DNA from: Ptychodera flava
Lineage: Eukaryota > Hemichordata > Enteropneusta > Ptychoderidae
Length of the DNA stretch: 64,000 bases
NCBI RefSeq assembly: GCF_041260155.1
Contig: NC_091947.1
Span: 2,926,501-2,990,500 of the forward strand
Reading direction: 5' to 3'
Shown: piece by piece, positions 18,601-64,000 of the stretch
How the letters are laid out: every line of letters begins with the position of its first letter
How positions within the stretch are numbered: position 1 is the stretch's first letter
The notes under the pieces: model-generated
What the model saw: the letters and a program-made list of their open reading frames with translations, nothing else
Databases searched by the model: none
What the model was told of the DNA's origin: nothing
Made by a program: the position numbers and the translations under genes

Positions 18601-18793
18601 CAAATGCTGGCTACAGGTACACATATGGACGAAAAGGCCATGTATCGGTGATAGAATCAAATTCATAGACGTTGTTGTGAAGCTAATATTATGGGATTTG
18701 CGACGATTGTGACCGCCGAATGCATAGCGCAGGCGATAAAAAAATCACCTTGATGTTTCATTTAATTTGTTATTCGTCATTTCCCAGGCTAAA
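15700..18793. other. Intergenic region between divergent genes
   Basis: This lies between the start of the Skeletor-like gene (minus) and the first TTPA-like gene (plus). The 5' untranslated exon of the TTPA-like gene should be here, because its coding exon begins right after a TTTCCCAG acceptor at 18787. From about 16570 to 16960 a degenerate motif CTGTCATTC recurs at irregular spacing. A 97-codon minus-strand frame at 17422-17715 has no recognised domain. Confidence 0.5.
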
Positions 18794-20610
18794 ATGACGG
18801 ACATCAGGCCAGTACCGTACACGTGCAAGCTAAGCGAAGCCACTCTTGAGAAAGCCAAGAGCGAGCTGAACGAAGATCCAACCACGAGACAACAGAAACT
18901 CGACGAACTGCGAGATTTGTTCAGGACAAGGCCAGACATTAAGTTTCGTCAAGACGACGGTTTCCTACTTAGATTTCTACGAAATAAGAAATTTGATGTC
19001 GACAGGACCTTTAAAATGCTCGTCCATTATTACAAAGTGAGGAAAAATTATCGAGAAATATTTGACAACTTCAAACCATCTGCAGTTCGAGATATGTACG
19101 ATTTGGAGTACGATTTCGTTTGTCCCGGGAGAGACGAAGAAGGAAGGGTCGTTGTCCTCACACGGGTAGTAGGTAATTAGGAACAGATTCTTGATATTTT
19201 CTCATTAAACCCAAAATTGTTTTAACACAGACAGGAGTTTTCAGGACATGCCTGCAGCTGGGTCTGATAATTACCTGTAATCACGAGAAATAGCCTCTGT
19301 TTCAGAGCTTGAAATCTTGGACAGATTTCAAACAAACACGTTCAACAAATTTAGGAAAGCAATATCATGGGGAAATGTGGGCTAACTCACACCATGCACA
19401 AATACTATAAGTATTCTGCGGGCTATCTCACATGTTAAGTGAAAATTGCTTCGACGCCAAATGTATGTGGCTACCTAAGGTCATTTCAAGACATGTACAC
19501 TCCATAGCATCACAGCAGCTGTCGTTATTTTGACTTGGAAATTCAGCAGTTCTATTGAGCTTCACTGAAATTCGATCTGAATATATTTACGTTTCGTTTT
19601 CATTTCACCTAAGTAAAGGCGAGGACATAAATGACCAGATCTCTCACCTTACATTAATTAACGTACCAGGTAGACTGGACTTGAAGAAGTACAAAATCAC
19701 TGACTACGTACGAGCTCAACTGATTCTGCTGGAAACGTTGCTATTCGATGAAGACGTGCAAGTGAATGGTATAGTAATCGTAATGGACTGGGAAAAGCTG
19801 AGCCCATCTGAATTGAAATATACCACACCGACGGTGCTGAAGAGATCGGCAGATGCCTATTTGGTAGGGAGAATATTGTCATTGAGACAAATACACATAA
19901 AACGTATCCTTTGTTTCAATACCAATTTACAGTTGTTGAGGTCTTTGAGAAAGGTTGCACGTTGTCAGTCTTTTTGCAAGTAATCACCATGTCAAGAATG
20001 ATAGTGTTGCAACACGTTTCTCAGTATTTCACTATTAAGCTGTAGAGTGGGAACGATATAACGCAACAGCAAAACGTCTTACAAATGTATATAAGCCTAA
20101 CAACAAAACTGCCTAAACGAAGTGAATAGAATTTGTACCAAAAACAACAAATACCTGAATTATAACCGTTCGCAGTGGCTTTCCTTGGTCACCAACTTTG
20201 TTAAAAGAAGAAATTTAGTGTGACGTCAGCCTGATGTTTACTTTCCAAAAATAACAATTTCAGAACGCAATGCCGATTCGTCTGAAAGTTGTGCACTTCG
20301 TCCGACCCCCTGGAATATTCGAGATTTTGTATGGAATTATGAAAACTTTTCTGACAAAGAAGATCAGTAAACGGGTAAGCTATGTATGTATGTATGTATG
20401 TATGTATGTATGTATGTATGTATGTATGTATGTATGTATGTATGTATGTATGTATGTATCGATGTATCGATGTATATGTAAGAATAGTCATAACTCCATA
20501 AGCAATCATCCCGAGAGATCAAAATGACTGTACAGTACCATACACTCATACCATTTTTTTATTCAAAAGCGACACAAATTTTCAGCACAGTGTGTGTTTG
20601 TGGGCACGCA

Positions 20611-25827: not shown

Positions 25828-28051
25828 CTTCCAGTCTAGCCGACCAAATGGTGAAGATAAACAATCATATTCTTTATCAAAAGGGCAAGAGAAGCACTTC
25901 TTGAATTAACGGTTCTTGAATTTCTTGTCATTAAAACAATAGCTTGATATTTTACCTTGAAATTTCGGCATGGTGATACTATCACTTATAGCTTCCAAAA
26001 TGGCTTCTATTTTGAGTCTTTTGTGAAAGTTCAAGAAAATTGAAATATTAAAATAGCGTTGAATGGGCTAACACTATACTTTGCACTGTTTGCTAGCTTT
26101 CCTCTACGGTAATACAGTCACTTTGGGTGAAAAGGTCGATGTGTTCCCACACATAACTGTAATGACTGATGTGTCGCTTCACAATTCCTTGAAGCGGGTA
26201 TGGTCCTTCTTTTCACGATCATTTCCGCCGTACACATAGCGACAGGCGTGAACGATTTACTCGTAAATTTCACGAGAAGTTGTTTTGGATTACTCTTTCA
26301 TGCATGCCGAAAGTGGAACGTGGGCTGTTACAGATCATTGCGTTAGAAAGTTCAGCAAGAGATCCAGGTGTGTTCCAGTACTTATTCTTTCTAAAATGAC
26401 GTCTCTTTCAATGAAACCCAAGAAAATTGGTCCGTTCAGAATTTATATAAAGTAGATGAAGTAGATTGTTAGGTAATCACCGGACAGCGACCACCTAGAC
26501 AAGTGTTTGAAAATTGATGACTCGACAGTTTTCCACATTCCAAAATCACCTGGTCCAGTGATCATGACAACCATTTCAACGACTGTAATTGGTTAGTTAT
26601 TATCCAAGAGTGGATTATACATTACTTCCATTGCAGAAAACACGTGTCGTTGCTGGAGTTGAGCTTGATCTAAATCTTTCCTGGTAAGTTGTCTTGAAAT
26701 TATCTTCAAATTTTAAAATGAACGCGAAAGTTTCAGGAAGGCTTGAGGTTTGTTTTGTACGTGGCAGCTGATTTGCAGTGAACTTAAATATACCGGCTCA
26801 ATCGGCATCATCGATAGCTAAAGGCAAGCCAACTCACACCCTCTGCACATCCAACGCTTGCTGGTAGGTGTAAACCCTAGGTCACGATAGCACACTTATA
26901 ACCAAGCTTTCAAATTATGGAAGCAAGGTCACCAATGGAAATTTTAAACTCAAGAAAATTACGTTTTGCTGTCTGGCCTTCCACGTTACTATAAATTTCA
27001 CCCCAAACGGCGCCTTCATGGTCGAATATTGTATTTGTTGAAGGTCAAAAAGGGGCAAGGTCGGTCGACATATTTACCAATATGAGTAGCCATCTATGTT
27101 GTTCAACATTTTGGCAGAAAGGTCAATAAAATCACACCTCTACTTACAATTAGAATTAATATGACACCCTATGTCATCATGTCAGGTATACACGATTTAA
27201 TCAGTGTCATATTAATACCATGTTTCACGTTGTGCTAAAACAAAGTGCATTGCACTTTTGTGACGCACAATACCGCGGAGTTAACTATGTACATGTATTT
27301 TAAACCTGAACTATCGTAACACATTTACTTTAACTCATACTAATTCTAAGGATCTGATTTTTATATACATAAAAGCGGCAAAACATACTGAATTAGCGAT
27401 TTTACCCTGCGAATAAAACAAAAATTAACAGCGCCAATGACTGGTAATCAGGAAATACACAGATTGAAGGGTTTATGCAGCTCACATTAACAGAACGTGC
27501 AGCGATGCACAGCGGTGCCAAGTAACGCCTGAAATTATTGTAGTAAACGTGTTTGCCCGGTGTTCGGCACTGTCGTCGCCATATCGCAAACAATATTGCT
27601 ATACTTAGAAAATGTCAACATGTTTGAGTTTTGAGATCACAATCAAATGTTCGCGTTCCCTTGTTCCACCAACGAGTGATGACTCATCGAGGTACTGGTC
27701 TTTATAATAATTTCATGGTTAAACATTGTGAAATCTCGCCTTCTCTTGCGTCATTTCCAAGAGATGATGTAACATTTCAGTGTTCAATTCACGTGAACAA
27801 GGGATGTCTGTGAGTGTGTCGGAGCATAGACCTTAAAAAGACCCTACGGTTGTCGGATCTACGCTCTTCAAAAAGGTTATCATAGTACACCTCTACTATC
27901 GGCAAGTGGTCATTCGTATACAAAGGTTTCCCTCACAATTAGGTCACTGTGTCCGCAGGTAAGAGCAGAACTACAGCTTGAATAAAAATGCAGAACTACG
28001 CTATGTCATTAAATTGGGACATGTCATACCGATTTCCTTCTGTGTTCTGAG

Positions 28052-28158
28052 GGTATGACGTCACCAAACTTCGACCGGTATGACGTCAGTCACATTGATG
28101 TTGGGGTATGACGTCACCAAACTTCGACCGGTATGACGTCAGTCACATTGATGTTGTT
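28052..28158. promoter_or_regulatory. Cluster of four CRE palindromes in a 53-bp tandem duplication
   Basis: TGACGTCA, the full CREB/ATF palindrome, occurs at 28056-28063, 28081-28088, 28109-28116 and 28134-28141. The block is a two-copy direct duplication (period 53). It lies about 0.6 kb upstream of the gene B coding start and could sit in its promoter or 5' intron. The regulatory role is inference; the repeated motif is seen directly. Confidence 0.5.
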
Positions 28159-28681
28159 TTAAAATGCAATTTACCCCGCACATTAGTGTTCATGCCCGGT
28201 GAGAAATTTCGCCCTACATTTTGACAATCGCAAGAATGAATTCAATGAAAGTACCAAACATAGTTGTATCTTCTCTTTTTCTCTAAAATACTGCTACCGG
28301 AAAAAGATAAGTAGACTTTGAAGCCAAAGAGTTGCGTTAAGATAAAAAACTCATTTACAGCAGTAGTTGTGTTTTTGTATCTAATCGATCGCTATTATAG
28401 AGGTTAACAAACTGTCATAATTGTATTAGTAGAATTAACACTTCTATGAAGATCTGACCATGGAAGGTCGATGCACATCCCATTAACGCTTTTCAACGGT
28501 CGTTAAATTATGGATATACCATACGCATATTGTCCAAAGGTAATCAATAATTTTCTGTGGTAATATTTGTAAGAAATGAAAGCCCTCCACCGTTCAGTAA
28601 TTGCATGTACATGACTTTAGCGATTAAACTCCAGCTAATCTTTTGATAATCAAGCCATACCATTATATCTTGCCAGGAAAC

Positions 28682-31600
28682 ATGACGGAAAACAGCACAT
28701 TGCCGTATAAATGCACGATGAGTGAAGCCACTCTCGAGAAAGCCAAGCGTGAAGTGAACGAAGATCCTGGCACCAGACAACAGAAACTCAACGAGCTGCG
28801 AGATCTGTTCAAAACCAGGCCAGACATCAACTTCCGCTTAGATGACGCCTTCTTACTGAGGTTCCTGCGAAACAAGAAGTTCGATGTCGATAGGGCTTTC
28901 AAAATGCTTATTCATTATTACAAAGTAAGAAAAGATTTCCCGGATATGTTTGACAACTATGTGCCATCGTCTGTTAAAAAGATTTTTGAGTTGAATACAC
29001 AAATGGTGTGCCCTGGAACAGACAAAGAAGGACGAGTTATCTTGGTCGGAAAGATTGGTAAGTTTGGAAACATTTTACAATGACTTCGAGGCGAAATTAA
29101 GAAAGTACGTGCCTGGACATTGAAAGATTTAAACTAAGTCTTTCACCTAAACTTTCCGTGAAGAATCTTTAAACCTTTTCGAAATCAAGAATAAAAGTCA
29201 AGAGTCACCGTTTAAATTTGATATCAGAAATCAGGCACTTTATTTGTTTGCCGTCTGTGTGCTGGTAGGTTTTCAGAGAAAATTAAGATAATAAACATAA
29301 TATTAACACTATAACAAACAAAGGCATTATTTTTCCAAAAGAAACTAAATAAATTTGAGTTTCTGTTAATACACTTGTGTTTTTGTCTGTTTGGGTTTTT
29401 TTCCCTGGCTGGCTGGTAGGTTTTAAAAGTCTAAGGACAGCAAACAAATAATTTTCTTGAAATGGCCCTACCAAATGTTTACCTATATTTGAAGTTCGAA
29501 ATGGTCGATATCCCTGTTTTACATGTAACTGAATGGGGAAATTTAAATTTTCCGTTTTCACAAAAATAAGCCCATGACACGTTTGTTTCCTCCATTAGAT
29601 TCAAAATGAACCCAACAAGTAGTATATCAAAACGTCTAAATATCTGTCCTCAAGGCATATACTACCTTAAAAAGTGAAAGAAAGGTGTATCTGGCTCCGT
29701 AAAATCATTTGGAACCAGGGCTTCTCGATATATTCGTCATGTCTGTTTTTGTTAGTGACGTTAAAGCTGTTTTAACATGTCTTCTTCTTCAAAATACAAA
29801 TATCCGCTAAAAATCTATGAGTTATGTTCCCTGTGATAATTATTGTCATCAATCCAAACAAGTCCCATTACCAACTTAGATTGTTGTTAAGATAATTAAT
29901 TACACACGCATGATCGCCAGCAAACGCACGGACCACAATCTAACTGCCAGGAGAAGTGGTAGCCTAAGTTCCTATGATAAAACGTGTAAAATGAGGAAAA
30001 ATCTTTTTTTTTTCAAAGTATCCACCAGCGCCACTGCACGCAATAGAAACAAAATATAAAACATAGACTTATGATTAAGTTTCACAGGTATTTGAATATC
30101 TCATTGTCAAAGTTCGCGCAGAGTTCTGAAGTAACATGGCCACATGTGCATGATACAGCGGGTATATTATTAGTATTTTCAAGATTAGTGAACGATCAAG
30201 TAGCCTTTTGTCGTTACTGTCTATAAATTAAAATCAATGTTTACTTAATCAGAACTATCTACAGATATTTTTATAATAACGATGTGAGAGTGTATTTAAA
30301 ATTCCACATCTTCACTTCTGAGTAAACTTTCACGACTTATTTTACACCGATTCAAATATAATCTAGTATTTTTCGTAGAAGTAACTTAAAGTAACTTTGT
30401 TTCTGCGCATGAAATTCACATTTAAGTTCCATGTACAGGAGATTGGGATCCGGAAAAATATGCGCTTATGGACGGCATCAAGGCTCAGTTGCTGTTGCTT
30501 GAAACCCTGTTGGCGGACGAAGAAGTTCAAGTTCACGGCATGGTGTTCGTTGCAGACTATGCTGGACTCAACAAAAAACATATGAAGTTCATGAGCCCGA
30601 TGGTGATGAAGAAAATGAACGACGTATACATGGTAAGGAGGCGTTCTCAAGACCTAAACCATGAATTGCGAATTGCCTTCTTCAATTTATTTTCTCAGCA
30701 TCCCTAGCAGTGGTACAAAGGAGGAAAATCTAAACTTTACAGAGAACTGTAACTTGCCTGCGCTCTTTTCATTCGGTCAAAAAGAACACTTCCATCGTGT
30801 ACGAAGCATGCAGATATATCAAAATCAACATTTGGAAACGTTCGAAGGAGGCTATGGAGTTACTGTTCACTATAAGTTGACCAAGGCTTCGACAGATTTC
30901 ATCATAAACCCTTAACAAGCGACCTAGCGGCCGATATAGCTCCGCTGTGTTTATGTAGAGAATAACTATTTTTTACACATGTTGATGAGGAAGGTGGATA
31001 TCTTTGAAAGCTCAATGCAGAGGCCAGAAAAAAGTGGCTAAAATAAGCTGCAAAAATACACAATTGAAGATTTCATCATACTTTGAATATATCACATCGG
31101 ATCATACCTAAGAACATGTCAACCAAAGCTATCTGATGAGTAGTTTTTTGAGAATAAAATTTTCTGACCAAAAATGGCAACAATTGCCCCAAAAAATGAA
31201 ATTGCAGATTTCATGTTTACACATGTTTTGACCAAAAATGGGAAAAATTGCCCCAAAAAATCAAAATTGCAGATTTCATCATTATTTTTTAATAAATGTC
31301 ATTTAGTTCATCTGTAGAAACCTGTATACCAAATTTCAAAGCTATCGGATGAGTAGTTTTGGAAATACACGTTTTGACCAAAAATGGCAAAAATTGCCCC
31401 CAAAATACAAAATTACAGATTTCATCAGAAATTCATTATATATCCCTGAACTCATCTGTAGAAACCTGTATACCAAATTTCAAAGCTATCAGACCAGTAA
31501 TTTTTGAGAAACACATTTTTTGACCAAAAATGGCAAAAATTGCCCCAAAATTACAAAATTGCAGATTTCATCATAATTTCAACAAATATCATTAAGGTGG

Positions 31601-32734
31601 TCTGTAAAAACCTCTATACCAAATTGCAAAGCTATCAGATGAGTAGTTTTGGAAATACACATTTTTTGACCAAAAATGGCAAAAATTGCCCCAAAAATAC
31701 AAAATTGCAGATTTCATCACAATTTCAATAAATATCATGTAGTTTATCTGTAGGAACCTATATAACGAATTTCAAAGCTATCAGATAAATAGTTTTGGAA
31801 ATACACATTTTTTGACCAAAAATGGCAAAAATTGCCCCAAAAATACAAAATTTCAGATTTCATCAGAAATTCAATATATATTACTCAGTTCATCTATAGA
31901 AACGTGTATTCCAAATTTCAAACTATTAGACCAGTTCTTTTTGAGAAATACATTTTTGACCAAAAATGGCAAAAATTGCCTTAAAATGCAAATTTGCATA
32001 TTTCTGCACAATTTGAACAAATCTGAAATAGATCATCCCTAGGGACATATGTACCAAATATCAAAGCTATCTGACTGGTAGTTTTGAAGAAGAAGATTTT
32101 TAAAGATTTTTTTACCAAAAATGACAAAAATTGCCTTAAAAATACAAATATGTAAATTTCACAACGATTTGAATAAATCTGACTGAAGTCACCCTAAGTA
32201 AACTGCATATCAAATTTCAAAACAATCGGACAAGCGGTTTCAGAGAAGAAGATTTTTTTACCAAAAACACCAAAAATTGCCCCAAAAATACAAATATGCA
32301 AATTTCACCACGATTTGAACAAACTTAAGTGTGGTCACCCCAAGTGAACTGCATATAAAATTTCAAAGCAATTGGACTTGCAGTTTCAGAGGAGAAGGTA
32401 ATTGTTGACGGACGACGACGACGACGACGGACGACGGACGACGGAAAATCAACCTATTTGATAAGCTCCGCGTCGCTGACAGCGGAGCTAAAAAGCTCTA
32501 TGATTTCACTTTTTCACAAAAATAATGACGTTAACGATAACTTTGCATTGTTTAAAATATCTCTTCGCGACTTTAAGATCTCTTATTGTCTTCCAGAATG
32601 CAATGCCGATACGCTTCAAGGCCATGCACTACGTCCGCCAACCTGAGCTGTTCTCTACCCTGTTTGCCCTCTTCAAACCGCTGCTCACGGAAAAGATGAA
32701 AAAGCGGGTAGGCATGTGTGTGCTTATGTTGAGA

Positions 32735-40739: not shown

Positions 40740-41150
40740 GTGGTAGAGTGACAACACTGTTACAAAGTGCGACATCAACAGTGCATGGTGTACATACTGA
40801 TGCAACATATGAGATGAGATGGCAACCGTCTGCTGACATATGTAGTGCATGACGGGAGGGGATCCCCGGCCTAACCTATTATTTGGTAGGTAAGGGCAGA
40901 ACAATTTTGCTGCTATGGATGATTTTGCTGATATTTGTGTTTTCTTCATTAAGTTTAGTTACATGTAACATAATCGCGTCAAATTTGTATCGTAAGCTTG
41001 ATATTTATCTGTACAGAAGACGTTGTAATGGAGGTATAAAGTAAGCTTGGCACGCTTTTGACCTCACGAAATGTTTTGGTACGTTCATGATCACGGTGGC
41101 GAATTTTTATCAGCGCCCTCAACGGGAAAGGACCTTTGCAGACCACCAAG
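40740..41150. promoter_or_regulatory. Presumed bidirectional promoter TRUB1 / small membrane protein
   Basis: Only about 410 bases separate the two divergent start codons (200 if TRUB1 starts at 40949). No intervening repeats are seen. A shared head-to-head promoter is inferred from spacing alone; I see no TATA box I would defend. Confidence 0.5.
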
Positions 41151-44100
41151 ATGGCTGAATTCGACGATAGAGAGTTCGCAGAGAAGTTTGGACATTTACC
41201 TCCTGAGCATGTGGAACTTATGTGGCACGATGCAACAAATATTTATCTCGTTGTTGCTCTTATCAGTATACTTGTTATAATTTACGTTAAAAGGTTAGTT
41301 TTTCACACCAAAGCCGTTCTTGTACTCACTCTAGTTCATTTGCTGTCCTTTGTGATTGTACTGTTACTCCACTCGTACAAATCGTCAAATGCACATGATG
41401 GGCAGATCGTCCATGTAGCCGACACGAACACGAAGTGTCTGTTACCGGCTACCCAAAAGTATTAAAGATAGTAAAGAATGAGCTACAAAATCACTGTCAG
41501 TTTTAAGTTGCAGGTAGAATAAGTCTGTGCCTTAGCAAAAAAATACTAAAAAAATAGTAGAATGTGCTGTACGTACTGTATACATGCCACACGGTCCATG
41601 GAAGTAGCTATCCCAGTGGAATTTTTTTAATGGACTTTTTTCGGAATAAGGCAACTTCTTCTGGAAGTTTGGTGCCGTAAGTCTGTAGAGGTTTTCATCC
41701 AGTGGATGTTGGTATGTGTAAGGAACTATTTCTAAGTTGGATTTACATTTTTGGGACATACTCACAGAGGATTGCATACAACTATTTTACGTTGTTTACA
41801 TTGCTCCAGAATAGGCGCCCTCAGTGACTGGGCTCGCTAATGGAAGGCACTCCCATGGGTAGCCCTACGATTATAGCGGGAGTGTCCGGCTTTAGGAGTT
41901 AGGAGGCGGTGTAGCCAAAGCCGAACACTCTCGCCATACTCGTAGGGCTATCCGGTTGGTAACCCTGCGTACGTTTGCTATGTGCTCCTGGCGTTATAGT
42001 ATATAGTACGGCTAGCTGCAAAATTGTAGCTCTACGGTGAGGCGGTCGGTGAGTTTTGGTTTTTGCGACCTCGCTCACCAGTAGAGCTACAATGCCGAAG
42101 GCCCTGAAGCATACAAAATAAGCACGCTGCACATGGCACGGCATTTTGATGTAAAATCCCATATACTGCATTTGGTCATACTGATTTATCACTTCTGAAG
42201 ATTAAAACACTATACTACACTAACCTTGTCGTGTATGGGGTTTGCTATTTGTTCAAATACGTCGATCGCGTTCCAAAAACATTTCTTGGAGACGCCATTA
42301 CCAACTTCCGGTAATGGCGGCTCCCAGAAACACGCTCAATGTTTATGGAACGCGATCGACGTGTCTGTGCTAATACCAACACCCATAAACGACAAGGTTA
42401 GTGTAGTATAGTGTTTAGTCTTCAGTAGTGATAAATCGGTACGACCAAATGCAGTAAATATGTGGGATTTTACATGAAAATGCCGCGTCATGTGTGGCGC
42501 GCTTATTTTGTATGCTACAGGGCCTTCGGCATTGTAGCTTTACTGGTGAGCGAGGTTGCAAAAACCAAAACTCACCGACCGCCTCACCTTAGAGCTACAA
42601 ATTTGCAGCTAATAGTACGGCCTGAGCACTGCTAAGGTCCATAAACAAAAACAGGCGACATGCACATGCACTCTCAATTGGAACAGCACACTAAAAGCTA
42701 CTTTTATACTGAATATTTTAGGCTGAAAGCAACTCGATTCCGATTTATGCCTACCCGAATCACTCAGCTGCTCACAAACTACAAAAAAAATTGCTCTCGT
42801 GACGCCCTAAACCGTTAGTTTTCCATTGAAGCACGGTCAAGGGCCAGTGGCCAGGCACATCTCATATGAATGTATCTAGTAGCTCTATGTTTAGGCGGAT
42901 TGTGAGTTTTGGTTTTTGCGACCTCGCTCACCAATAGAGCTACAATGCCGAAGGCCCTGTAGCGTTCAAAATAAGTGCGCCGCCCATGGTGTGGCATTTT
43001 GATGTGAAATCCCACATATTTCCTGCATTTGGTCATACGATTTATCACCATTGAAGATTAAAAAGCCCCCACTCAATTATCAGATTTATCTAATAAAAAT
43101 ATTAGTTACTTGATGCAAGATTCAATGGAAAACAAAAGAATGACAAACTGTTAATGGGCTGTTGACACATTCGCTAATGCGAGAACCTGGGATTGAGAAG
43201 GGCGCCTTTCACTATACTACACTAACCTTGTCGTTTATGGGGTTTGGTATTTGTTCAAACACATCAATCATGTTCCAAAAACATTTCTTGGCACAGCCAT
43301 TACCAACCTCCGGTAATGGTGGCTCCCAGAATTACGCTAACGCTCAAGTTGTGGGCTACAGAACTTCAGCAAATACATAGTGCCCACTTTCATAGTCTTC
43401 AGTAACTCCACTGCATCCACTGCTGTTACTAACCTCGTATCATTTAGAAGATAGCATGGCAACTGAGAGCTCTCTACAACGGGAGGTCAAGGTCAAGCCA
43501 CCCTTGATTTTTAGCAATCTATTCTTGTGTTAATAACCATAAATTAATTCATTTTCATAAAAAAGAAATGCAGATAATGCATTGTTATGTAAATGAGCCA
43601 CCTTTCTTTAGTTTTCTCCTAGCTATGGAGAACACTGCAACTTCAAAACAAACCTTGAAAATATTGTCACCTGAATTTGCTGCACTTAATGACCATGGCA
43701 GTGCAACAGATCTTTGTATACAGAATCATAACAGGACACCCAGAATAGTATTGAAAGTTGAAGCATAGAGTTACAGTGCCTACTTTTTATTTGTGACTAT
43801 CTTTGCAAGGACTATGGTTTATGATGGTAGAAAAAACATGTCCTGTGTAATGCACAAACAGATGGTCAAGTATACGCAACAGAAAACTGAATATGCTTCA
43901 TTGATACATTCATGTAGTCTGTTCTTTCTTACAGACACAGACGCAATCTGCAAAGACTACTTCCCGCCCAGCTTGTAAATATGTTCAGAACACGAGACAC
44001 TTTATACATGGATACGACAGAGAAAGATGAAGAGTTAAAGAGAGTGCGACTCAGACAACAACTTGACATGTATTACCAATGTAAGAAAAGGATAATTACC

Positions 44101-45088: not shown

Positions 45089-45912
45089 AATAAAGCAAAG
45101 CTTCTACTAGATCTTCTTGACTGTAAATATTTAATGAGAAAACCTACATGATGTAACCAAGCACAGTGTGTGTGCCTTCTATCCATGACAGCTATGTGGT
45201 GATGACAAACCTGCAGCTAATATTTGCATATCAATCGTTGGGAGAGACCATACTGTGCCATCTCAGGTTTCTGGTTTTTAATCGAAGTGGTGCAAGATAT
45301 TCAATTGTACAGGGAAGAGTCCTACGCATATATGATTTTTTTTTGAGTAATTCATGGATGGAGACAGGATCTTTAGCTTTCCCAATATACTCCGTCATCA
45401 ATAGTGTGTACACAGGTGTGAAAGCAAATCCACTAGCCGATGGGCAAGTAACCATTAGAGCTCATTATCCAAAGGGCTAGTAGCCATAAGAGATCACTAG
45501 CAAGTCTGAGTTCCACCACTCGACATTTTAGTTGCCAGTTGAATAATTCAAAAGTCAAAGCAAAACACTTTGCTTGGCTATAATGGCAAGTCTGTATCTT
45601 TGCGTTAGGATTTATCAATCCCTCCTAAGTATAATGTACAGAAATCTCATAGCTTCAGTTGCTGTTTTACGGCACAGTAAAATATAAACAGTATAAATTG
45701 TATAGTAAACAGAAATATGCTTTAAAGGTTGTACGCGCCTTGAAATTGAAAAACTTACACTTTTGCTGTAATTACCATGAGGAAACATTAAACTATCCCC
45801 TTTTGAAATTGAGAATGAATATCAGGGGTCATCATGCGAAAGTTTGAACAGGAGAAACAAGATCCCGAATATTTGATGATTCTTGAAATTCAAAATCGCC
45901 ACCATCCCTGTG

Positions 45913-46246
45913 TTAAAGGGACAAAGTCAGCCATTTTTCATGAATTTTGTTTGATATGAGATACTACTTATATTGTTTGACATGTTGAAAGATACTGAAT
46001 AAATGGGTGACCATGCATATATTCGACCCCGATTTTATACAAATTAAATAAAACCATCACAAAAATGAATTAATGGTCACGACCATTAATTCATTTTCGC
46101 CATGGTTTCATGTATCATGTCTAAAACTGGGGTCGAATATATGCATGGTCACCCATTCATTCAGTATCTTTTAACATGTCAAACAATATAAGTAGTATCT
46201 CGTATCAAACAAAATTCATGAAAAATGGCCGACTTTGTCCCTTTAA
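45913..46246. mobile_element. TTAA-flanked palindromic MITE, 326 bp
   Basis: The element 45917-46242 starts AGGGACAAAGTC and ends GACTTTGTCCCT, with TTAA on both sides. It is palindromic over most of its length (CCATGCATATATTCGACCCC pairs with GGGGTCGAATATATGCATGG). TTAA duplication is typical of piggyBac and Kolobok transposons; no transposase is present. Confidence 0.8.
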
Positions 46247-47447
46247 CTTCCTTGTGAAAATACAATTTTCTATTTTCACAAATGGCAGCCTGTGAAGTAT
46301 TTACATACTCAAAGAGCTTCAAAACGAACCCAAACAAATGGTAGACCAAAACTCTATTGTATCTGTTTGAGAGTCTAAATATCTCACCCTGACGTACATT
46401 GTACCTCAACTCGACAATAGTGGAGCAAGTCAGGGGAGGTATGGGAGTCCATTCTTTGGTCCTTTTCAGTCCAAAATTGGTTCATCTTAATGCTTTTCTT
46501 GCAATTGTGTTGTTGTGTTTGTAAACAAAAATACAGTGAGGATAGGCTTAAAACAGTGTTGCAAAATTATTCATGCAATATATCCTCACCGAATGAGTTT
46601 GAGCAAACGAAACTCCCTTAGTTGCTAAATAAACTCTGTGACTCATATTTCTTTTGTTAACCCCAATATCACTAACTGACAGTAAACACACCTTAAAAAA
46701 TGATCATATTTTGATTAAAAATGTTACTCAACTTTTGAAGTTAATTGCTGGTAATTTTAGGTTCGTAAGCTTACTATTAACTTACTTTTTAGGGTTTGTG
46801 TAATTTTGCTGGTTTTGCTGGCATGGGCAGTTCATAGTACATGACATGGACTCGGTGCGTGTATCCAAGGCTACCAGAAAGGTCTGTGTAGTACACATGA
46901 TCAATGATTAATCACAATACAGCTGATGACAGTCAAAAATACTTTGATACTCTTTCACCTTCATTTCATAGAGAGAAAACAAAGGATATGGAAATCTTTC
47001 ATTCTGATAATTGTATAGTATTATATTCGCATTGGTGCAATAAAGGTCAACCAATTTTCCAACACTGAGGTTGAAATTGTCTTCTTTTGTTTATCTAATG
47101 ACATCGAGAAAGTACAGTGAAAGTACAGCTCAAAGAATGTCCCATCTGCAGCTACGTCACTTTCTTGTTCATAAACATTGCCTCTTCCTAGACATTTGCG
47201 ATGAATATCGTGCATATATGTTGTGCATAGCAGGAGACCCATTATAAGGGTCCTATACGCGCAGCCAAAGACCGGACAGACACTCCCTGCAAAGAAAAAC
47301 TATATTAATGTGACGTTTGGTATTGTGGTATTGAGTAATTCAGTTTGTCATTGACTCATGATCACCAGTAACACCAATACAGACCCGAAAACCTGGGCAT
47401 ATATTTACTTTTTAACAGCAAGGAATGTAGTGAATTTTTTCCTCCCT

Positions 47448-49509: not shown

Positions 49510-51530
49510 TCAGGCTGTGGAGAACTGGTCAGATTTTAGCCCCTTGACGGCGAAGACATCCACGTAGAAGCTACCTCCGTTCCACGTTAGGACCTACGAA
49601 GACGATGGCAAGGAAGACCACGTGGGCGACAAAGTACTGGTACCACATCCAGGTGAGTAACAGCATGCACGTACACATGAAGTAACAGACTGTATAGTAC
49701 ACTACAAGACGCATCCTAGATTTAATTTGAGTGGGGAAAGGAGAAAATTGTACGTAAGAATCGGCACCACAAAATATAAATTACTTTAAATTTTCAATGA
49801 CTGTGTACTCGAAAAGCAACTATACGATTATTCAATGCGTGGTTTCGAAGACTTCAATTCTTGCAGTTGTCGAGTTTCGATAGCCGTCGCCCCGGATCGT
49901 AAATAACAGTTCTCCGGCGACTTCTGTACGTAAATATTTCCCAAGTACAACTCTGGTAAAACAGGCATTTCCAGAATATCATTTCTCCAATACAAGTGAC
50001 AAAGCGCATACAAGGTTCGGGCAAGGTTTTTATTATGTATACACGTGACCTGCAACTCACCTTGGACCAAAGAGGTTGGCTAGTTTATATTGGATAGAGT
50101 TTTCATCGGACGTGAAGTACCTGTAACTATCTAGATACTCATCTGATGGTCCGAAATAAAATAGAACGAGAATGCAGCTTACATGTGGTACTTCGCTGTA
50201 GATTGCAGATGTCACGTCATCAACGTAGTTCAAAAAATAATGAATATCCGGACTGAATAAACTGAACCTTTCGTAAAATACCGAGTTATAGATGTACGGA
50301 ATTTTTTGTCGTTGGAATAATTTAATTTCTTGTTTGACAGCCCGGCCCTCGTGGTCTCAGTAAAATATCATATTCGTAATGATTATTTGTCACGTCACGT
50401 TTATTTATAAATTTTAAAGCAATGATTTTTTTATTCAGCTTGATTTTTCGGTACGCTTGGAATGTATCTGACGGACGATCATGAGAATAATTGTCATTGA
50501 CACATTGGTGAAAAGCTATATTTTCTCACCATTCGTCACATGATGGGTTATTATTTTTTTAAATCGTCTAAATTGTGATTATGTTACCTTAGCTATCATA
50601 TTTTATATACATTACGAATTAAAGTTATTATCTTACCTGACTATGATGTAGATAATGAATACGTACAACATCTGTAATGTAAGCGAAACACTATAGGTTA
50701 TGATACAATCCATGTTGGATTGGTATTATTATCGTTGTGGTAGTCGAAGTCATGCCATATTTTTCTTGATAATTTTTATGATGCTAGTTCGCATGTTTTG
50801 CGGGGAGGATGGTGTTGAGTGATTTCTGGCTGTTGTGGCACTATATCTGCGTTTTGCCTCAGTGATGCTCGTTTGTTTCATAGAAGGGGGCCATGGCCGT
50901 AAAATCATAGCAGTTGGCGCTGTGACCTTAACCAATTGAGTGCTGTAATTTTCCAGTCAAAATTTCATTGCAACACTTTACCCTTTTTTAATGAATTTTT
51001 CTGTATTTTTATAGTTTTGCAGCTAATTGACATAGCTTTTCATAGGCTTCAGTTTTTGACCAAAACTTTTGGGAAAATCTGAAAAAAAAAATCGTTGGTG
51101 CCATACAGGGCAATAAAAACTGGTATTGGCACTCTAAATGTTAACAAGTTTGTGAACAAAGTTTACGATATGGGCACTTACTGAATGCGCGACGAAGAGG
51201 GCCAGTGGGGTAGCAACTAGCCAGACCAAGTCAGGCCCGGTGTGTTGTTGCAAAAATATCGTGTACCAATGTTGGCCGGCTAACTCAGGGTACCACCTCA
51301 CACCGAACGTTACGTATGCAGGGAGTAAATAAATGAATATCGACGTCATCTTGTCGAGACTGTGCAACACCAGTGAGTTTCTGTAGAGGGCCACAGCCCA
51401 CAGGAGTGGTCCGTTCCCCATTGCAAATACCATATGGAAGAGGTGCTCATTGTTTGGGAATGCCCTGCCAAAAGTATAAATGTAACGTTTAAAGGTGCCA
51501 TGTAACATCTAGCAGGTGAAGATGGAGGTG

Positions 51531-51604
<74 letters not shown>

Positions 51605-53851
51605 CTATTCCATAATTTTTTTCATAACCATTTGCCCTGTCAGTACTGAGTACTATGAATTAATTGTTAAATTAGCTGGATGTTAAGACATACACCACAC
51701 TTACATAAAAATAAAACGATATGATGTGTATTCTTTCTCTGCCAAGTTCGGTGGTTGACAGGTTCACAAATGTTTCACAGAATATAAAAATATGAGCAGC
51801 TTTAAAATGAACCCTACTAGCTTGTTCAGCTTTTAGTACACCGCACTTATTGCATTCATTTTCTGATATTCATGGCGGACTATATTAGGAAAATATGTAG
51901 GAGCAGGTCTTGTCTAATAAAATGGTAATTTCATCTCAATTTGAACAGGCTATCGGCCTGAAAACATCAACACGACAACTTTAAGTAGTAACGACAGGAA
52001 ACGAAGATGAAAATAGGAAGCATTTCGTTTTTCAAGAGTAAAACATTTTACACTAAACAAATCTGAATTAGCCATCAATAATTGAAAGTAATTAGATGGA
52101 GCGGTCACAAGAAGTTTGAAAATGTTAAATGTCCAATACGGCTAATTTTTGGTAGTTGAATATACAAGCTATAAACATAATAATAACATTCCATAAAGAA
52201 AATCGTTCAGACACGCACGATTTTGAGCGAATATTTTACCGATCCGACATTGCAACACTATCTTCTGATTCAGAAATGTCGACCTTGTCTGTATTCTAAC
52301 AACTTTTCATGAGATTTTAGATAAGTTTTGCGTCATTGACATTTGCCTTTCAACTTTGGCCTCGATGTTTCCGCCGCCATGCATAGTTACTGAAAACATT
52401 TTGACAATCAGCGGACCTTTCACAAGCTATTATGGCACTTACCACAGATACACCCTACACGTGATATTGGCTATTATGGCACTTACCACAGATACACCCT
52501 ACACGTGATATTGGTTATTATGGCACTTACCACAGATACACCATACATGTGACATTGGCTATTATGGCACTTACCACAGGTACACCATACATGTGATATT
52601 GGCTATTATGGCACTTACCACAGGTACACCATACATGTGATATTGGCTATTATGGCACTTACCACAGGTACACCATACACGTGATATTGGCTATTATGGC
52701 ACTTACCACAGGTACACCATACATGTGATATTGGCTATTATGGCACTTACCACAGGTACACCATACATGTGATAAATGCTATTATGGCACTTACCACAGA
52801 TACACCATACACGTGATATTGGCTATTATGGCACTTACCACAGGTACACCATACACGTGATATTGGCAATGTAGCAGAAGTCCAACATAAAGAGATGCCA
52901 CTTGACAGGCCCAAGGTACCAACGGATCCGTAATGCAAGTAAGATAGGCGCACATATCGTGTAGTAGTAAGGTAAAATCCATGGTACGACACAGAGACCG
53001 AATGCCCATACAAAAAGATTGGCTACTGCCAAGACGAACACTATCTTCTCCGGGATGTGATTTTTCCAAAGGAACTGGAAAGAGACAATGGGATCTCAAC
53101 AATGGGATCCAATGCAACTGTTCGGCTCTTCATCATGGCCAGTATGTGTGTGTACTGTTCAATGATATTTCAATGTGGATTGTACACAATTCATTTGTCA
53201 TAAATAACACTGCATTAAGTTGTATACTCAATGTATTGTTTTGCATTGGATAATAGTTCGTATTTCAACATACTTATGGGAAGAGGAGACGAAAATGTAT
53301 CTGTCTTCTGTTAGGAACACTTTGTAAATATCATCAAAATAACAGTTTCCATAATCTCTTTAGAGTTAGCTGTTTTAGTTTCAAATCAAACCACTATGTA
53401 AGCCTTGACATGTTTAGCATGTATTTCATGGACATCCTGAGGTTCCGCTTTCTGAGAGTAGGCCATGTGAGAGTCTAGGATTTCAATTTGGAAATAGTAT
53501 GGAGAAACTAAAACACTCTGGCAAAATATCACATTTTATGAATCATGTAACGGGAATCAAATACCCAACGCTCAATTTGAGAATAAGTAGTCTCGAAAAT
53601 GATATTGAAACTGCGGTTAGTTTATAACCCTACTTTCTCCTTGCATTTTTTCTAATAGCAAACTGCATCGGAAACAATATACTTACCGAAACGAAACCGG
53701 TTTTATCGTCAGTAGCCGAAAATTCCACCTTTTTCTCTTGAAAATAGTCACTCTCTGTTGACATGGATATACTAGTAATTACATCCTCATTTTCGTCTAT
53801 AAGGCATTCTTTGTCTATCTGGTAACTGTTATCCGCCAAACTTTTCGACAT
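49510..53851 (-). CDS. Glycerophosphocholine acyltransferase (yeast GPC1-like, DUF2838), with a one-base frameshift in the last exon
   Basis: Six exons, 53851-53687, 53074-52839, 51464-51182, 50671-50637, 50120-50061 and 49715-49510, join in phase up to the last exon. The family acylates glycerophosphocholine to lysophosphatidylcholine in the ER membrane. The first 55 residues are hydrophilic, then several membrane helices follow (VFVLAVANLFVWAFGLCVV, ILPYYYTICAPILLAL). The signature YRNSLVLHSLDKMTS lies at residues 161-175, and the C-terminal signature TWNGGSFYVDVFAVKGL near residue 303. In the last exon these two halves are in different frames: as read, translation stops at 49571 after VERR. 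One extra A near 49587 would explain it (a sequencing error or a real allele); the intended product is then 327 residues. Exon 2 is followed by a 44-bp donor-bearing minisatellite. Confidence 0.87.
51533..51601. repeat. (GA)n microsatellite
   Basis: A GA run interrupted once, just upstream of exon 3 of the acyltransferase gene, about 70 bases from its acceptor. Confidence 0.95.
52427..52866 (-). repeat. Ten-copy 44-bp minisatellite carrying the exon 2 splice donor
   Basis: Units repeat at 44 bases (for example 52427, 52471, 52515). On the minus strand each contains the last 27 bases of exon 2 (ending GGTGTACCTGTG) followed by GTAAGTGCCATAATAG. The true exon end is the unit nearest the exon (donor at 52838). 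The remaining copies lie at the start of intron 2, all with an intact GTAAGT donor. Variants are few (ACAGG/ACAGA, CACGTG/CATGTG), so expansion is recent. Confidence 0.92.
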
Positions 53852-59190: not shown

Positions 59191-59408
59191 AGTCAGTTCT
59201 GCGCATGACAGTGTTGAGTTAACAGCACAGTCATTTCGCTCTCGCAATTTTCTTCTTTTTCCTCTTGCCAAAAGAGATTTTTACTCCTTTGTCGTCATTG
59301 TGTGGTGTTCCAGTAACACCTCGATCAAGGGAGCACTACCTTTACAAGTTTTCAGCTGTAAAGGTGTCGTTTTTGCCAATTTTTGGAGTTGGTGATTGAG
59401 TTGTGGAA

Positions 59409-60548
59409 ATGCCGAACCGAAAGCAACGTAGATCGAAGAATCAGTCGAAGGACGGACGAGAAAGCGCCAAGAACGAGAGCGAGGACAAGACCTCTAGAAG
59501 GATGAGTGAAGAAGATGGATCAGGTCAAGTAAAAAGTGCAGAATTAGAAGAAAAAGATGAAGATCTAAGGGTAAATTTCAAAGCCTTTGGTCAAAATTTT
59601 CAAGGTTTGAGAGATTTGGACGTAATAAGAAGCGCGAAACAGGTGGTTGGAAAAAATGGTATCGTTGGAGTCCAATTCCTTCCAAAAGGTAGACAATGGT
59701 TAATATATGCAAAGAATGCTGCTTGTAAAAGAAAACTGCTAGTGTCAGGCATCGACATCGCAGGTACACATATGGCATTGAACTCTGTACTACCTGAGGA
59801 CAATGGCATTAGAATATCAATGCATGATCTTCCATTAAATATTCCTGATCAAGTCGTGGCAAATTTCTTAGATGCTTATTGTGACAGAGTGCAGCCAGTC
59901 GTCAAGTGTACGGTCACAGACCCTGAAGACGGCGGGTCATATTTCAACGGAAACAGATATTGTCTTGTGGCCAGTGTCAAAGTACCTATCCCGAACTTTG
60001 CTCAACTAAAGTACATTGAAAATGGACAGCAACGAATCTATAATTTCAGAATTTTCTACTCGGGACAAGACAGAGAGTGCTCTTTATGCCGAGAATGCGG
60101 TCACAAACCAGTAGATTGTCCGAAAAAGCCACCGCTGACGTGTTTCATCTGTAAGGAAGTTGGTCACCGAAGTCAAGAGTGCAAGAAGCAGAAGCTTTGC
60201 TACAAGTGTAACCAAACCGGCCATATAGCCAGAGTTTGCCCTCAAGTTGACATTGAGTTAGTCGACCGCTTCGTTGAATCTTTTTCAATGAAAGCAAGAG
60301 AAGCGCAAGACATGATTGAGAAGGCCATGAATAGAAGTATGTCTCCATCACCGCAGAGGGTTATCACGACGCAAGCTGAAGTACACTCGGTTCGAGAATC
60401 GCAACAGGCAACGGAATCGGTATCACAAGAAACAAATACGAACACTCAACGTAAAGAGGTAAGAGACATAAACCAGCAAGATGTAGAGAAAGAAACGGAA
60501 GGAAAAAAGAAGGGACTGAGAAATACTTTAGCGTTAGTGGCATACTAA
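59409..60548 (+). CDS. LINE ORF1 protein with three CCHC zinc knuckles
   Basis: The 379-residue frame is intact. The N-terminal 60 residues are basic then acidic (KQRRSKNQSK, KDEDLRV). The middle (about 60-220) resembles the RNA-binding domain of L1/Tx1-type ORF1 proteins. Three zinc knuckles of C-x2-C-x4-H-x4-C form follow at about residues 224-277: CSLCRECGHKPVDC, CFICKEVGHRSQEC, CYKCNQTGHIARVC. The tail is polar and charged. It binds element RNA during retrotransposition. I chose the ATG at 59409; the frame is open two codons further upstream. It ends about 180 bases before ORF2. Confidence 0.88.
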   Translation: MPNRKQRRSKNQSKDGRESAKNESEDKTSRRMSEEDGSGQVKSAELEEKDEDLRVNFKAFGQNFQGLRDLDVIRSAKQVVGKNGIVGVQFLPKGRQWLIYAKNAACKRKLLVSGIDIAGTHMALNSVLPEDNGIRISMHDLPLNIPDQVVANFLDAYCDRVQPVVKCTVTDPEDGGSYFNGNRYCLVASVKVPIPNFAQLKYIENGQQRIYNFRIFYSGQDRECSLCRECGHKPVDCPKKPPLTCFICKEVGHRSQECKKQKLCYKCNQTGHIARVCPQVDIELVDRFVESFSMKAREAQDMIEKAMNRSMSPSPQRVITTQAEVHSVRESQQATESVSQETNTNTQRKEVRDINQQDVEKETEGKKKGLRNTLALVAY

Positions 60549-60731
60549 GACAGAAGGATAAGACCGCAAAATTGAGGTCACCCGCCATCGCCTATGGAAC
60601 ATGGCCGAGAAAAGAGACGATGTGAAGTGGTATCACCACCATTGACTGTACATAGTTCAGCAAATAAGTCCTTCTAGATATAAATGTATAGAGAAAATAA
60701 GAATTATTTCAATTTTTTTTGTTACAACTAT

Positions 60732-63700
60732 ATGTCTGCGCTATCAATTATAACACTAAATGTAAGAGGTCTTCGTGGCCAACTCAAACGAAATTGGTAT
60801 TTAACTGGTGTAAGAGAAATGCTTTCGATATTGTACTTTTACAAGAAACATATAGCTTAAAATCAGATGAAAAGCAATGGGAAAAAGAATGGGGTGGGAA
60901 AATTGTTTGGAGTCATGGGACGAATCATAGCTGTGGTGTAGCCATATTATTTGGAAAAAAGTTTGATATAGCGATAAATGATACGTACATAGATGGCAAT
61001 GGGCGCATTGCAGCCGCCATGGTAAATATAGAAGAAGAGAAATTTTGGCTGATTAATATTTATGCACCAAATACACCAACAGCAAAACAGATCTTTTTTA
61101 AGTCAGTAAATGATGTATGTTGTAATAATAAGGTTTTTGGTGAAGATATTATTATTTCAGGAGATTTCAATATCCCCTTAGACTTAAAGCTCGATAAAGA
61201 TAGGGGAGGGAAGGGGTTGTTGGAAATGAGGAAAATTGTAACGTAAGAAAATATGTCAACCAATTTATATCTCGAATTAATTTGATTGATGTTTGGAGGA
61301 GTTTGCATCCACACGAAAAAGGTTTTACATGGCGTCGAGCAACACCATTTGTACAATGTAGATTAGATTATCACCTTATAAGTAAGTCGATTATACAAAA
61401 TGTACAGGATGTCGAAATTGTTCCGTCAATTAGGTCTGACCATCACGCAGTTGTCATGAAATTAAATTTGAATTCCTCGATTAGGGGAAGGGGTTTCTGG
61501 AAATTTAACAATAGTCTATTAGAGGATAACTTGTATTTAAACAAGCTGGCTATTTTGATTGATAATTTGAAAGATAAATATAAGTGTGAATCAGAGAGAA
61601 TGAAATGGGATCTATGGAAACTTGATATTAAACGAATGACCATAAAGTACAGTATTGAAAAAGCGAAAAGAAGCAGAAATACCCTAAACGAAATATATGA
61701 TGAGCTGGTAGAAACGGAAAAATTTTTATGTAGTTCACCATCTAAAGCTTTATATGATAAGTTAAATACCTTAAAACAGAAATTTGAGGAGTTACACATG
61801 GCCGATGTGAAGGGTAAACAAATCCGCTCGAGAGCAAGATGGATTGAGCATGGAGAAAAAAACACAAAGTATTTTTTAAGTTTGGAAAAAAGGAACGGAA
61901 GAAATAAAACCATTAGAAAATTACAAAAAGCAAATGGAAATTATATTACCAGTCAGCGGGAAATTCAAGAAGAAATTAAAAGTTTTTATGCAGAATTGTA
62001 CGGAGAAAAAAAACGCGACATTACTCTTAGGGACTTTTTACAAGACACAGTCGTTCCTACGTTAGACGAAAACCAGAAAAAGTTCTGTGATAGACCAGTA
62101 ACAAATGGAGAGTGTTTTGATGCTTTAAAGAATATGAAGAAAAATAAATCACCCGGGTACGATGGATTGACAATAGAATTTTATAACAAATGCTGGCCTC
62201 TTATAAGTCCATTATTGCTTCAATGTTATAATGAGTGTTTTAGAGAGGGTATGCTTTCAGTTTCACAGAAAAGAGGCATTATCACTTATTACACAAGAAA
62301 AGCAAGCCTGAGCTTTTAAAAAATTGGAGACCCATTAGTCTTCTGTGCACCGATTATAAAATATTGGCACAAGTTTTGGCAAATAGATTAAAAACAGTGC
62401 TACCAACAGTGATCAGCTGTGATCAAGTTGGCTACATTAAAGGTAGACAAGCTGGAGAAGTTTTGAGATTGATACAAGATATGTTTGATTACACTTTCAG
62501 ATACAAAATACCAGGTGCAGTCCTTTTTATTGACTTTGAAAAAGCTTTTGATTCTGTTAACTGAAATATATAGAAGAAGTGTTAAATGTTTTCAATTTTG
62601 GCGAAAAATTTATCAAGTGGTTTAATGTAATGTACAGCGACATTTATAGTAGCGTTAACAATAATGGTTGGATGACAGAATTTGTAAATTTAAAAAGGGG
62701 AGTGCGACAAGGATGTCCACTGAGTGCCCAGTTGTTCATTGTATGTGTAGAAATATTAGCGTGTAGAATTAGACAATGTAAAGAGATCGATGGTGTTCAA
62801 TTACCGAGTGAAGTAGAAGAAAAACAAGCTCGTATTGCTCAATTAGCAGATGACACTACCGTTTTTGTCAGAAACGAGAAATCTATTAATAGAGTTTTGG
62901 ATATCATGAATCAATTTCAGAAAGTATCTGGTTTAAAAATCAATAAGACAAAACTGAGGCTGTTTGGCTGGGGAGTTTGAAAGATTCAAAGAAAGTATGT
63001 GGGAAGTTAAAGTGGACACTGAACCTGTAAAAGTACTTGGGGTATATGTTGGGTACAATAAACAGAAATGCGATGAGTTAAATTGGCAGCCAAAGCTCGA
63101 AAATTAGAGAGCACTTTGAATACCTGGAAAATGAGAAACTTAACTCCACATGGTAAAGTTTTAATTACGAAGAGTCTTGGTTTATCTAATCTTTTATACT
63201 TAGCAGCAGTATTAGATGTTCCTCCAAAAGTTGTCAAAAAAGTTGACCAATTAGTTTTTGATTTCATAGATTGTTCCAAATATAAAATAAAAAAGGGCGT
63301 TTTATTGTCACCTATAGAAAAGGGAGGGTTAAATATTCCAAGCTTCTACGAGCTTACACTTGCTTTAAAATTTACGTGGTTTAGAAAATTTTTTGATGAC
63401 AACAAAGCAGCATGGAAAATATTGTTTTCCTTCTTTTTACAACCAAATTGCAATGAGAGTATATTGAGAGCATATATTGATCCAAATAATTTGCCTCATG
63501 AGATCACTAACATGTTGTCTGGGTTTTATACCGATTGCCTGAAAGTATGGTTTAACATGAGATCGAAATGCAAAAGAGATAACAAAAAGACATTGTTGTG
63601 GAATTCCTTATACAGACTTTTTGTACCAGTAGTAGATCACATATTGCACACTTTTATTTTTAGTAAGGGAAGTGAAGAAATCGACATTTCAAAACTTTCA

Positions 63701-64000
63701 ACAAAAATTGTCTATAATTGTTGTTAGAAGACTTCTTAACGAATACAAATGCAATTCAAATGTGGAACAGAGAGTGTAAATGTATATTGAATGAAGAAAT
63801 GTATGGCTATTAGCGAAAAAGTCACACCAGAGACAAAGTTACATAGCTTTCACTGGAAATTTACCATACGACGAGTACCAACAAATCTCAGATTATTTCA
63901 ATGGAAAAAATTGAAGCTCCACTGTGCACGCATTGTCGTGAAGTAGATACACTAAGACACAGATTTTGGGATTGTATTGTGGCCAGAAATATTTGGGAGA
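60732..64000 (+). pseudogene. LINE ORF2 (endonuclease and reverse transcriptase), frameshifted
   Basis: An APE-type endonuclease at the start shows LNVRGLRG, LLQETY, INIYAPN, GDFNIPL, CRLDYHLIS and SDHHAV. The reverse transcriptase shows NWRPISLLCTDYKILA, then FIDFEKAFDSVN (motif A), GVRQGCPLSAQLF (motif B) and QLADDTTVF (motif C, with LADD where YADD is common). A C-terminal CCHC-like motif lies at 63910-64000. The reading frame changes near 60793, 61230, 62285, 62563, 62965 and 63080, so no full-length enzyme can be made. L1/Tx1 clade placement is from the motif set and the zinc-knuckle ORF1; it is inference. Confidence 0.9.

Follow-up and report, generated by a model that had tools for sequence, protein, structure and literature searches.

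A ten-unit minisatellite repeating a splice donor at the exon 2/intron 2 junction of a predicted GPC1-like gene in Ptychodera flava

When the end of an exon and the splice donor that follows it are repeated many times over, which copy does the spliceosome use, and what becomes of the message if it uses another? Choice among identical donors is usually studied with two-donor minigenes. Within the 64,000-nucleotide stretch of the Ptychodera flava genome analysed here (the window), ten donors of equal predicted strength stand 44 nt apart at the start of a single intron of a predicted gene. Should the first of them win, the locus would provide a natural test that splicing picks the first of ten equal donors at this spacing. 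Should the downstream copies be used, the number of units would govern gene dose through unproductive splicing; the effect would be easily measured, and the repeat may vary between individuals. Either outcome is relevant to the way in which the spliceosome selects one of several identical donors.

The repeat and its host gene

Tandem Repeats Finder reported a repeat at 52426-52867 with a period of 44, 10.0 copies, 95% matches and 0% indels, which agrees with the preliminary description of a minisatellite of about ten 44-bp units and falls within the size range of that class (tandem units of about 15-100 bp). On the minus strand, unit 1 occupies 52867-52824 and unit 10, the last, 52471-52428, and the sequence GTAAGT was present at unit position 30 in 10/10 units, as expected from the earlier statement that every unit holds an intact donor. 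A degenerate search with the 44-mer, allowing up to three mismatches, returned 10 matches in the window, 10/10 of them inside the array, whereas 100 shuffles averaged 0.00 matches. Unit 1 holds 29 bases of exon 2 instead of the 27 originally given, although the start phase of the 44-bp unit is partly arbitrary. A 20-base piece of the unit had no exact match in a collection of viral contigs, and Rfam gave 0 matches at gathering score across the window.

The array is embedded in a six-exon minus-strand gene model extending from 53851 to 49510, with introns of 612, 1374, 510, 516 and 345 nt and with GT and AG at every proposed intron edge. The whole model is a prediction assembled from reading frames and splice signals; its exon 2 ends at 52839 and its exon 3 opens at 51464, in keeping with the intron start (52838) and acceptor (51464) proposed beforehand. 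The 307-residue model product matched Pfam DUF2838 (PF10998) over profile positions 1-111 of 111 (E 5.3e-33, 114 bits against a cut-off of 25.2), and the match was unbroken over the exon 2/3 junction formed from donor 1. Unit 1 encodes residues 125-134 inside this match, with the Trp134 codon split by the junction, and the part of the product ending at Trp134 still matched profile positions 1-70 up to its final residue (E 4.1e-13). Because the DUF2838 match runs through Trp134, the coding copy in unit 1 lies in a constrained domain. Unit 1 was therefore taken as the ancestral copy and the nine intronic copies as derived.

Table 1 Features of the exon 2/intron 2 junction, its host gene and the rest of the window
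Feature	Position	Strand	Basis or remark
Minisatellite, 10 head-to-tail 44-bp units, G|GTAAGT donor in each	52428..52867	-	Tandem Repeats Finder, unit alignment, degenerate search
Unit 1, coding and presumed ancestral copy	52824..52867	-	Last 29 nt of exon 2 (52867-52839) and first 15 nt of intron 2
Nine decoy donors in intron 2	52428..52823	-	GT starts 52794, 52750, 52706, 52662, 52618, 52574, 52530, 52486, 52442
(CT)n microsatellite, sense RNA of intron 2	51534..51602	-	Tandem Repeats Finder
Exon 1 (coding part), proposed ATG at 53851, donor TCG|GTAAGT	53687..53851	-	Gene model
Exon 2, 236 nt, closing at donor 1	52839..53074	-	Gene model and Pfam match
Exon 3, 283 nt, acceptor partner for the array donors	51182..51464	-	Gene model; DUF2838 match crosses the exon 2/3 join
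Exon 4, 35 nt, proposed	50637..50671	-	Splice signals and frame only
Exon 5, 60 nt, proposed	50061..50120	-	Splice signals and frame only
Exon 6 (last), proposed, frame break near end	49510..49715	-	Splice signal and frame
Retroelement pieces, looking like a non-LTR element	59400-63727	+	ORF with CCHC zinc knuckles, then endonuclease/exonuclease domain (Pfam) and two ORFs without Pfam match
Two related CRAL-TRIO-type gene starts, probably tandem duplicates	18740-19980 and 28628-29083	+	Pfam CRAL_TRIO_N in both, CRAL_TRIO after the first
Inverted repeat, MITE-like	45912-46247		167-nt arms, 91% complementary, 2 nt apart
Degenerate array, units of about 146 bp	31219-32397		Tandem Repeats Finder
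53-bp unit, two perfect copies, each of two similar halves	28051-28156		Tandem Repeats Finder
Open frame with weak match to Pfam UPF0697	41091-41462	+	20 bits against a cut-off of 27

DUF2838 is described as the sole defined domain of the yeast glycerophosphocholine acyltransferase GPC1, whose homologues are reported in animals, yet as not found in chordates or arthropods (PMC5122774). By this domain the host gene is probably of the GPC1 type, with putative enzyme activity, and the acyltransferase assignment made at the outset is upheld. The likeness concerns the host gene, which bears the family's single defined domain, and not the repeat. The model protein had 0 matches in the PDB up to E 1. 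A pattern built from exons 2-3 had no match in viral contigs, and in prokaryotic genome contigs it fitted 13 stretches, 0/13 of which were confirmed by tblastn; these searches reach close relatives only, and as the collections are viral or prokaryotic, absence from them says nothing on sister animals.

Intron 2 has further features of its own. Its (CT)n tract was reported as GA on the plus strand (35.0 copies, 97% matches, 2% indels) and precedes the exon 3 acceptor by 70-138 nt; CU repeats are motifs of the PTB type. With the donor array at its other end, the intron carries repeats at both ends, and such repeats often vary in length. UAGGG, which we take to be an hnRNP A1-like motif, is present in the array only in units 9 and 10; intron 2 holds one further copy, at 51816-51812.

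Downstream donors and the message

The final TG of exon 2 and the first donor base together form TGG (Trp134), and TAA follows as the next codon. Translation of each extension showed that 9/9 isoforms extended to donors 2-10 stop at codon 135, as does a message retaining intron 2. The preliminary description had proposed that every third donor (132 bases) would keep frame and add 44 residues; the arithmetic of the frame holds, but the added residues do not appear, and because the TAA precedes any effect of frame choice there is no frame-preserving extension. A protein longer by 44 residues was therefore ruled out.

Donors 2 to 10 would lengthen exon 2 to between 280 and 632 nt. In these messages the distance from the TAA to the exon 2/3 junction downstream of it would range from 40 nt (donor 2) to 392 nt (donor 10), and that to the model's last junction from 418 to 770 nt. 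The usual threshold for nonsense-mediated decay (NMD) is a stop roughly 50-55 nt upstream of a junction, which the distances to the last junction exceed. The extended mRNAs thus look like NMD substrates that may be degraded, and any protein made from them would be cut within DUF2838.

Context (3+8 nt) and predicted U1 duplex energy (-10.2 kcal/mol) are identical for all ten array donors, and this energy falls between the extremes of the model's four remaining donors (-6.7 to -11.2 kcal/mol). One more GTAAGT in intron 2, beyond the array at 51704, is weaker (U1 duplex -7.3). Intron gain by tandem duplication requires that the duplicated unit supply a usable acceptor as well as a donor. Among the 20 AGs of the array the best has 8/14 upstream pyrimidines, compared with 10/14 at the true acceptor; by this crude count the array holds no better acceptor, and a new intron or acceptor there was not favoured.

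Donor choice is reported to depend on factors including SRSF1 and hnRNP A1, and SRSF1 can shift choice between paired competing donors to the intron-proximal site (PMC5585400). Exon definition would favour the short exon (236 nt) that ends at donor 1. Because of the precedent of human IFI6, discussed below, we expect donor 1 to be the main site, donors 2 and 3 to see some use, and the extended messages to decay.

Origin of the array and competing explanations

We consider it probable that the array is a young minisatellite born of slippage and tolerated since donor 1 is used enough. A 44-bp segment across the exon 2/intron 2 junction would have been duplicated in tandem; unequal exchange would then have raised the number to ten, and each intronic copy would have carried a complete donor along. 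The block opens with GCC in unit 1 and is followed by GCT after unit 10, a two-base match, and because GC stands at both edges slippage or microhomology is the probable origin. Units differ pairwise by a mean of 2.4 of 44 positions (5.6%), with unit 1 identical to unit 5 and units 4, 6 and 7 identical to one another, a pattern consistent with unequal exchange. Under this explanation only the donor 1 transcript would encode the protein, and the nine downstream donors would be decoys whose use yields a decay-prone or truncated message. We judged tolerance likelier than a role as splice modulator because only donor 1 makes protein, because there is no firm sign of selection on the donors, and because in IFI6 the 130-residue form is reported to predominate despite use of downstream units (PMC4526556).

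Several points weigh against tolerance. It assumes that donor 1 is used, and an SRSF1-type push to the intron-proximal donor would favour the decoys. The donor has been lost in 0/9 decoys, although loss would be expected if the decoys were harmful and old. Finally, a frame break in exon 6, considered below, may mean that the gene copy is damaged or misassembled, in which case tolerance would mean little.

A possible, though less probable, alternative is that the array acts as a brake whose strength follows copy number. Decoys would compete for U1, more copies would leave a smaller productive fraction of mRNA, and the repeat would serve as a length-variable dial of enzyme dose. In its favour there are nine decoys of equal predicted strength, each with an immediate stop, and a minisatellite in TERT intron 6 has been reported in work on TERT splicing (PMC11830802). 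The distribution of differences among units also appeared to favour it: all eight variable columns lie in unit positions 1-24, and positions 25-44, the 20-nt donor half, are invariant in 10/10 units. Counted as 8 sites, or as 6 events when the adjacent changes of unit 3 are taken once, the chance of an invariant donor half for this fixed 20/24 split was 0.004 (sites) or 0.019 (events). However, when any 20-nt block was allowed the chance rose to 0.06 (sites) or 0.21 (clustered changes as one event), and for the 9-nt donor alone it was 0.13 (sites) or 0.23 (events). Selection to keep the donors was not accepted, as their invariance was not significant once any block of the same length was allowed. 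On the units as they stand there is firm evidence neither for donors being kept nor for decoys decaying. We hold as rather doubtful the corollary that each added 44-bp unit supplies one equal decoy, such that array length would set the level of a phospholipid-remodelling enzyme while leaving its sequence unchanged.

It is improbable that the array simply grew unconstrained in a failing gene copy or pseudogene, made so by the decoys or by the exon 6 frame break, although the competing strong donors and the break would both speak for it. In exon 6 one frame runs to ...FVGPNVERR and then a stop, and the stretch WNGGSFYVDVF, which presumably corresponds to the C-terminal end of GPC1 proteins that it resembles, lies downstream in another frame. 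This break may be a real lesion or an assembly error, and the latter would remove it as a sign of damage. The five upstream exons, moreover, share one open frame, their proposed introns all begin with GT and end with AG, and DUF2838 is matched end to end, which argues against a decayed gene.

We also considered whether pairing between units hides the decoys more than donor 1 and so shields the productive site. The cost of opening the array donors was 6.1-11.6 kcal/mol with 40-nt flanks, and 22/24 other GTAAGT sites in the window were below the lowest of them (n=24, mean 3.45), although the ten array donors, with their common context, do not count as independent in this comparison. Seven units were folded, the other three being duplicates. 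Unit 3 (52736-52779, minus strand) gave z -3.10, and the remaining six ranged from -0.37 to 0.62, which speaks against shielding; the unit 1 hairpin in DNA gave z -0.38. Three adjacent changes in unit 3, CAA to ATT, create a 12-bp hairpin that includes the donor and may be a template-switch mutation. They leave donors 2 and 3 the most closed locally, at 30- and 40-nt flanks, a contrast that fades with longer flanks.

Donor 1 was the cheapest to open in 4/7 flank settings of a first series. Across 56 settings, which overlap, the mean cost of opening a decoy exceeded that of donor 1 in 56/56, by 0.2 to 3.3 (mean 1.1) kcal/mol. A control array of ten copies of unit 1 showed almost no difference (mean 0.2, from -2.3 to 4.7), and the effect is therefore caused by the decoys' own changes. 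When unit bodies were shuffled, however, 10/60 arrays matched the real difference, in a weak control run at one setting. By ease of opening, donor 1 ranked first in 15 settings, second in 19, third in 13 and fourth to eighth in 9; it was among the three easiest in 47/56 but as low as 8th of 10 with very short flanks. The array itself also made donor 1 harder to open (7.1 kcal/mol with the array compared with 4.7-5.3 without). Adding a second unit raised the cost from 5.3 to 7.1 kcal/mol with 60-nt flanks, further units brought almost no change, and 22/100 shuffled decoy stretches raised it to the same value. The fold of the whole array gave z -2.09, with 3/100 shuffles as stable, a weak control since shuffling destroys the repeat itself. 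A structural role of the array RNA is possible from these models, and shielding of donor 1 in particular is very unlikely.

Telescripting, the U1 protection of introns from premature polyadenylation, would give a use to the array's ten U1 sites, predicted to be strong and close to the start of intron 2, but this account is scarcely credible because the intron contains 0 AATAAA or ATTAAA (about 2.5 expected) and there is little to protect.

Relation to known minisatellites

The minisatellite of human IFI6 (6-16, G1P3) sits at an exon/intron junction and has a 12-bp repeat unit, a multiple of three. It has been known since 1995 as a minisatellite with multiple splice donors (Turri, Cuin and Porter 1995, Nucleic Acids Res 23:1854), and two downstream repeat units are described as serving as donors to give three mRNAs, the predominant form being the one of 130 residues (PMC4526556). 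The likeness to the array described here is that of a tandem repeat whose units supply splice donors: here too the repeat spans a junction, with unit 1 at the end of exon 2 and a donor in 10/10 units. IFI6 is unrelated to the DUF2838/GPC1-like host.

TERT intron 6 holds another intronic minisatellite of similar unit length in a splicing context, VNTR6-1, with a 38-bp unit and 24 or more repeats per allele compared with ten here; the part of that report consulted mentions no donors within its units (PMC11830802). Earthworm metallothionein genes are also described as carrying intronic minisatellites (PMC12783039). In the literature searched, parts of papers that mostly excluded subscription journals, no second minisatellite with unproductive decoy donors was found.

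The downstream donors of IFI6 are reported to yield different protein isoforms (PMC4526556), whereas in the 44-bp array the extensions are not open, and every downstream donor, from 2 to 10, leads to an immediate TAA after Trp134. What differs from IFI6, as read from the sequence, is that unit length and sequence together make every downstream donor unproductive.
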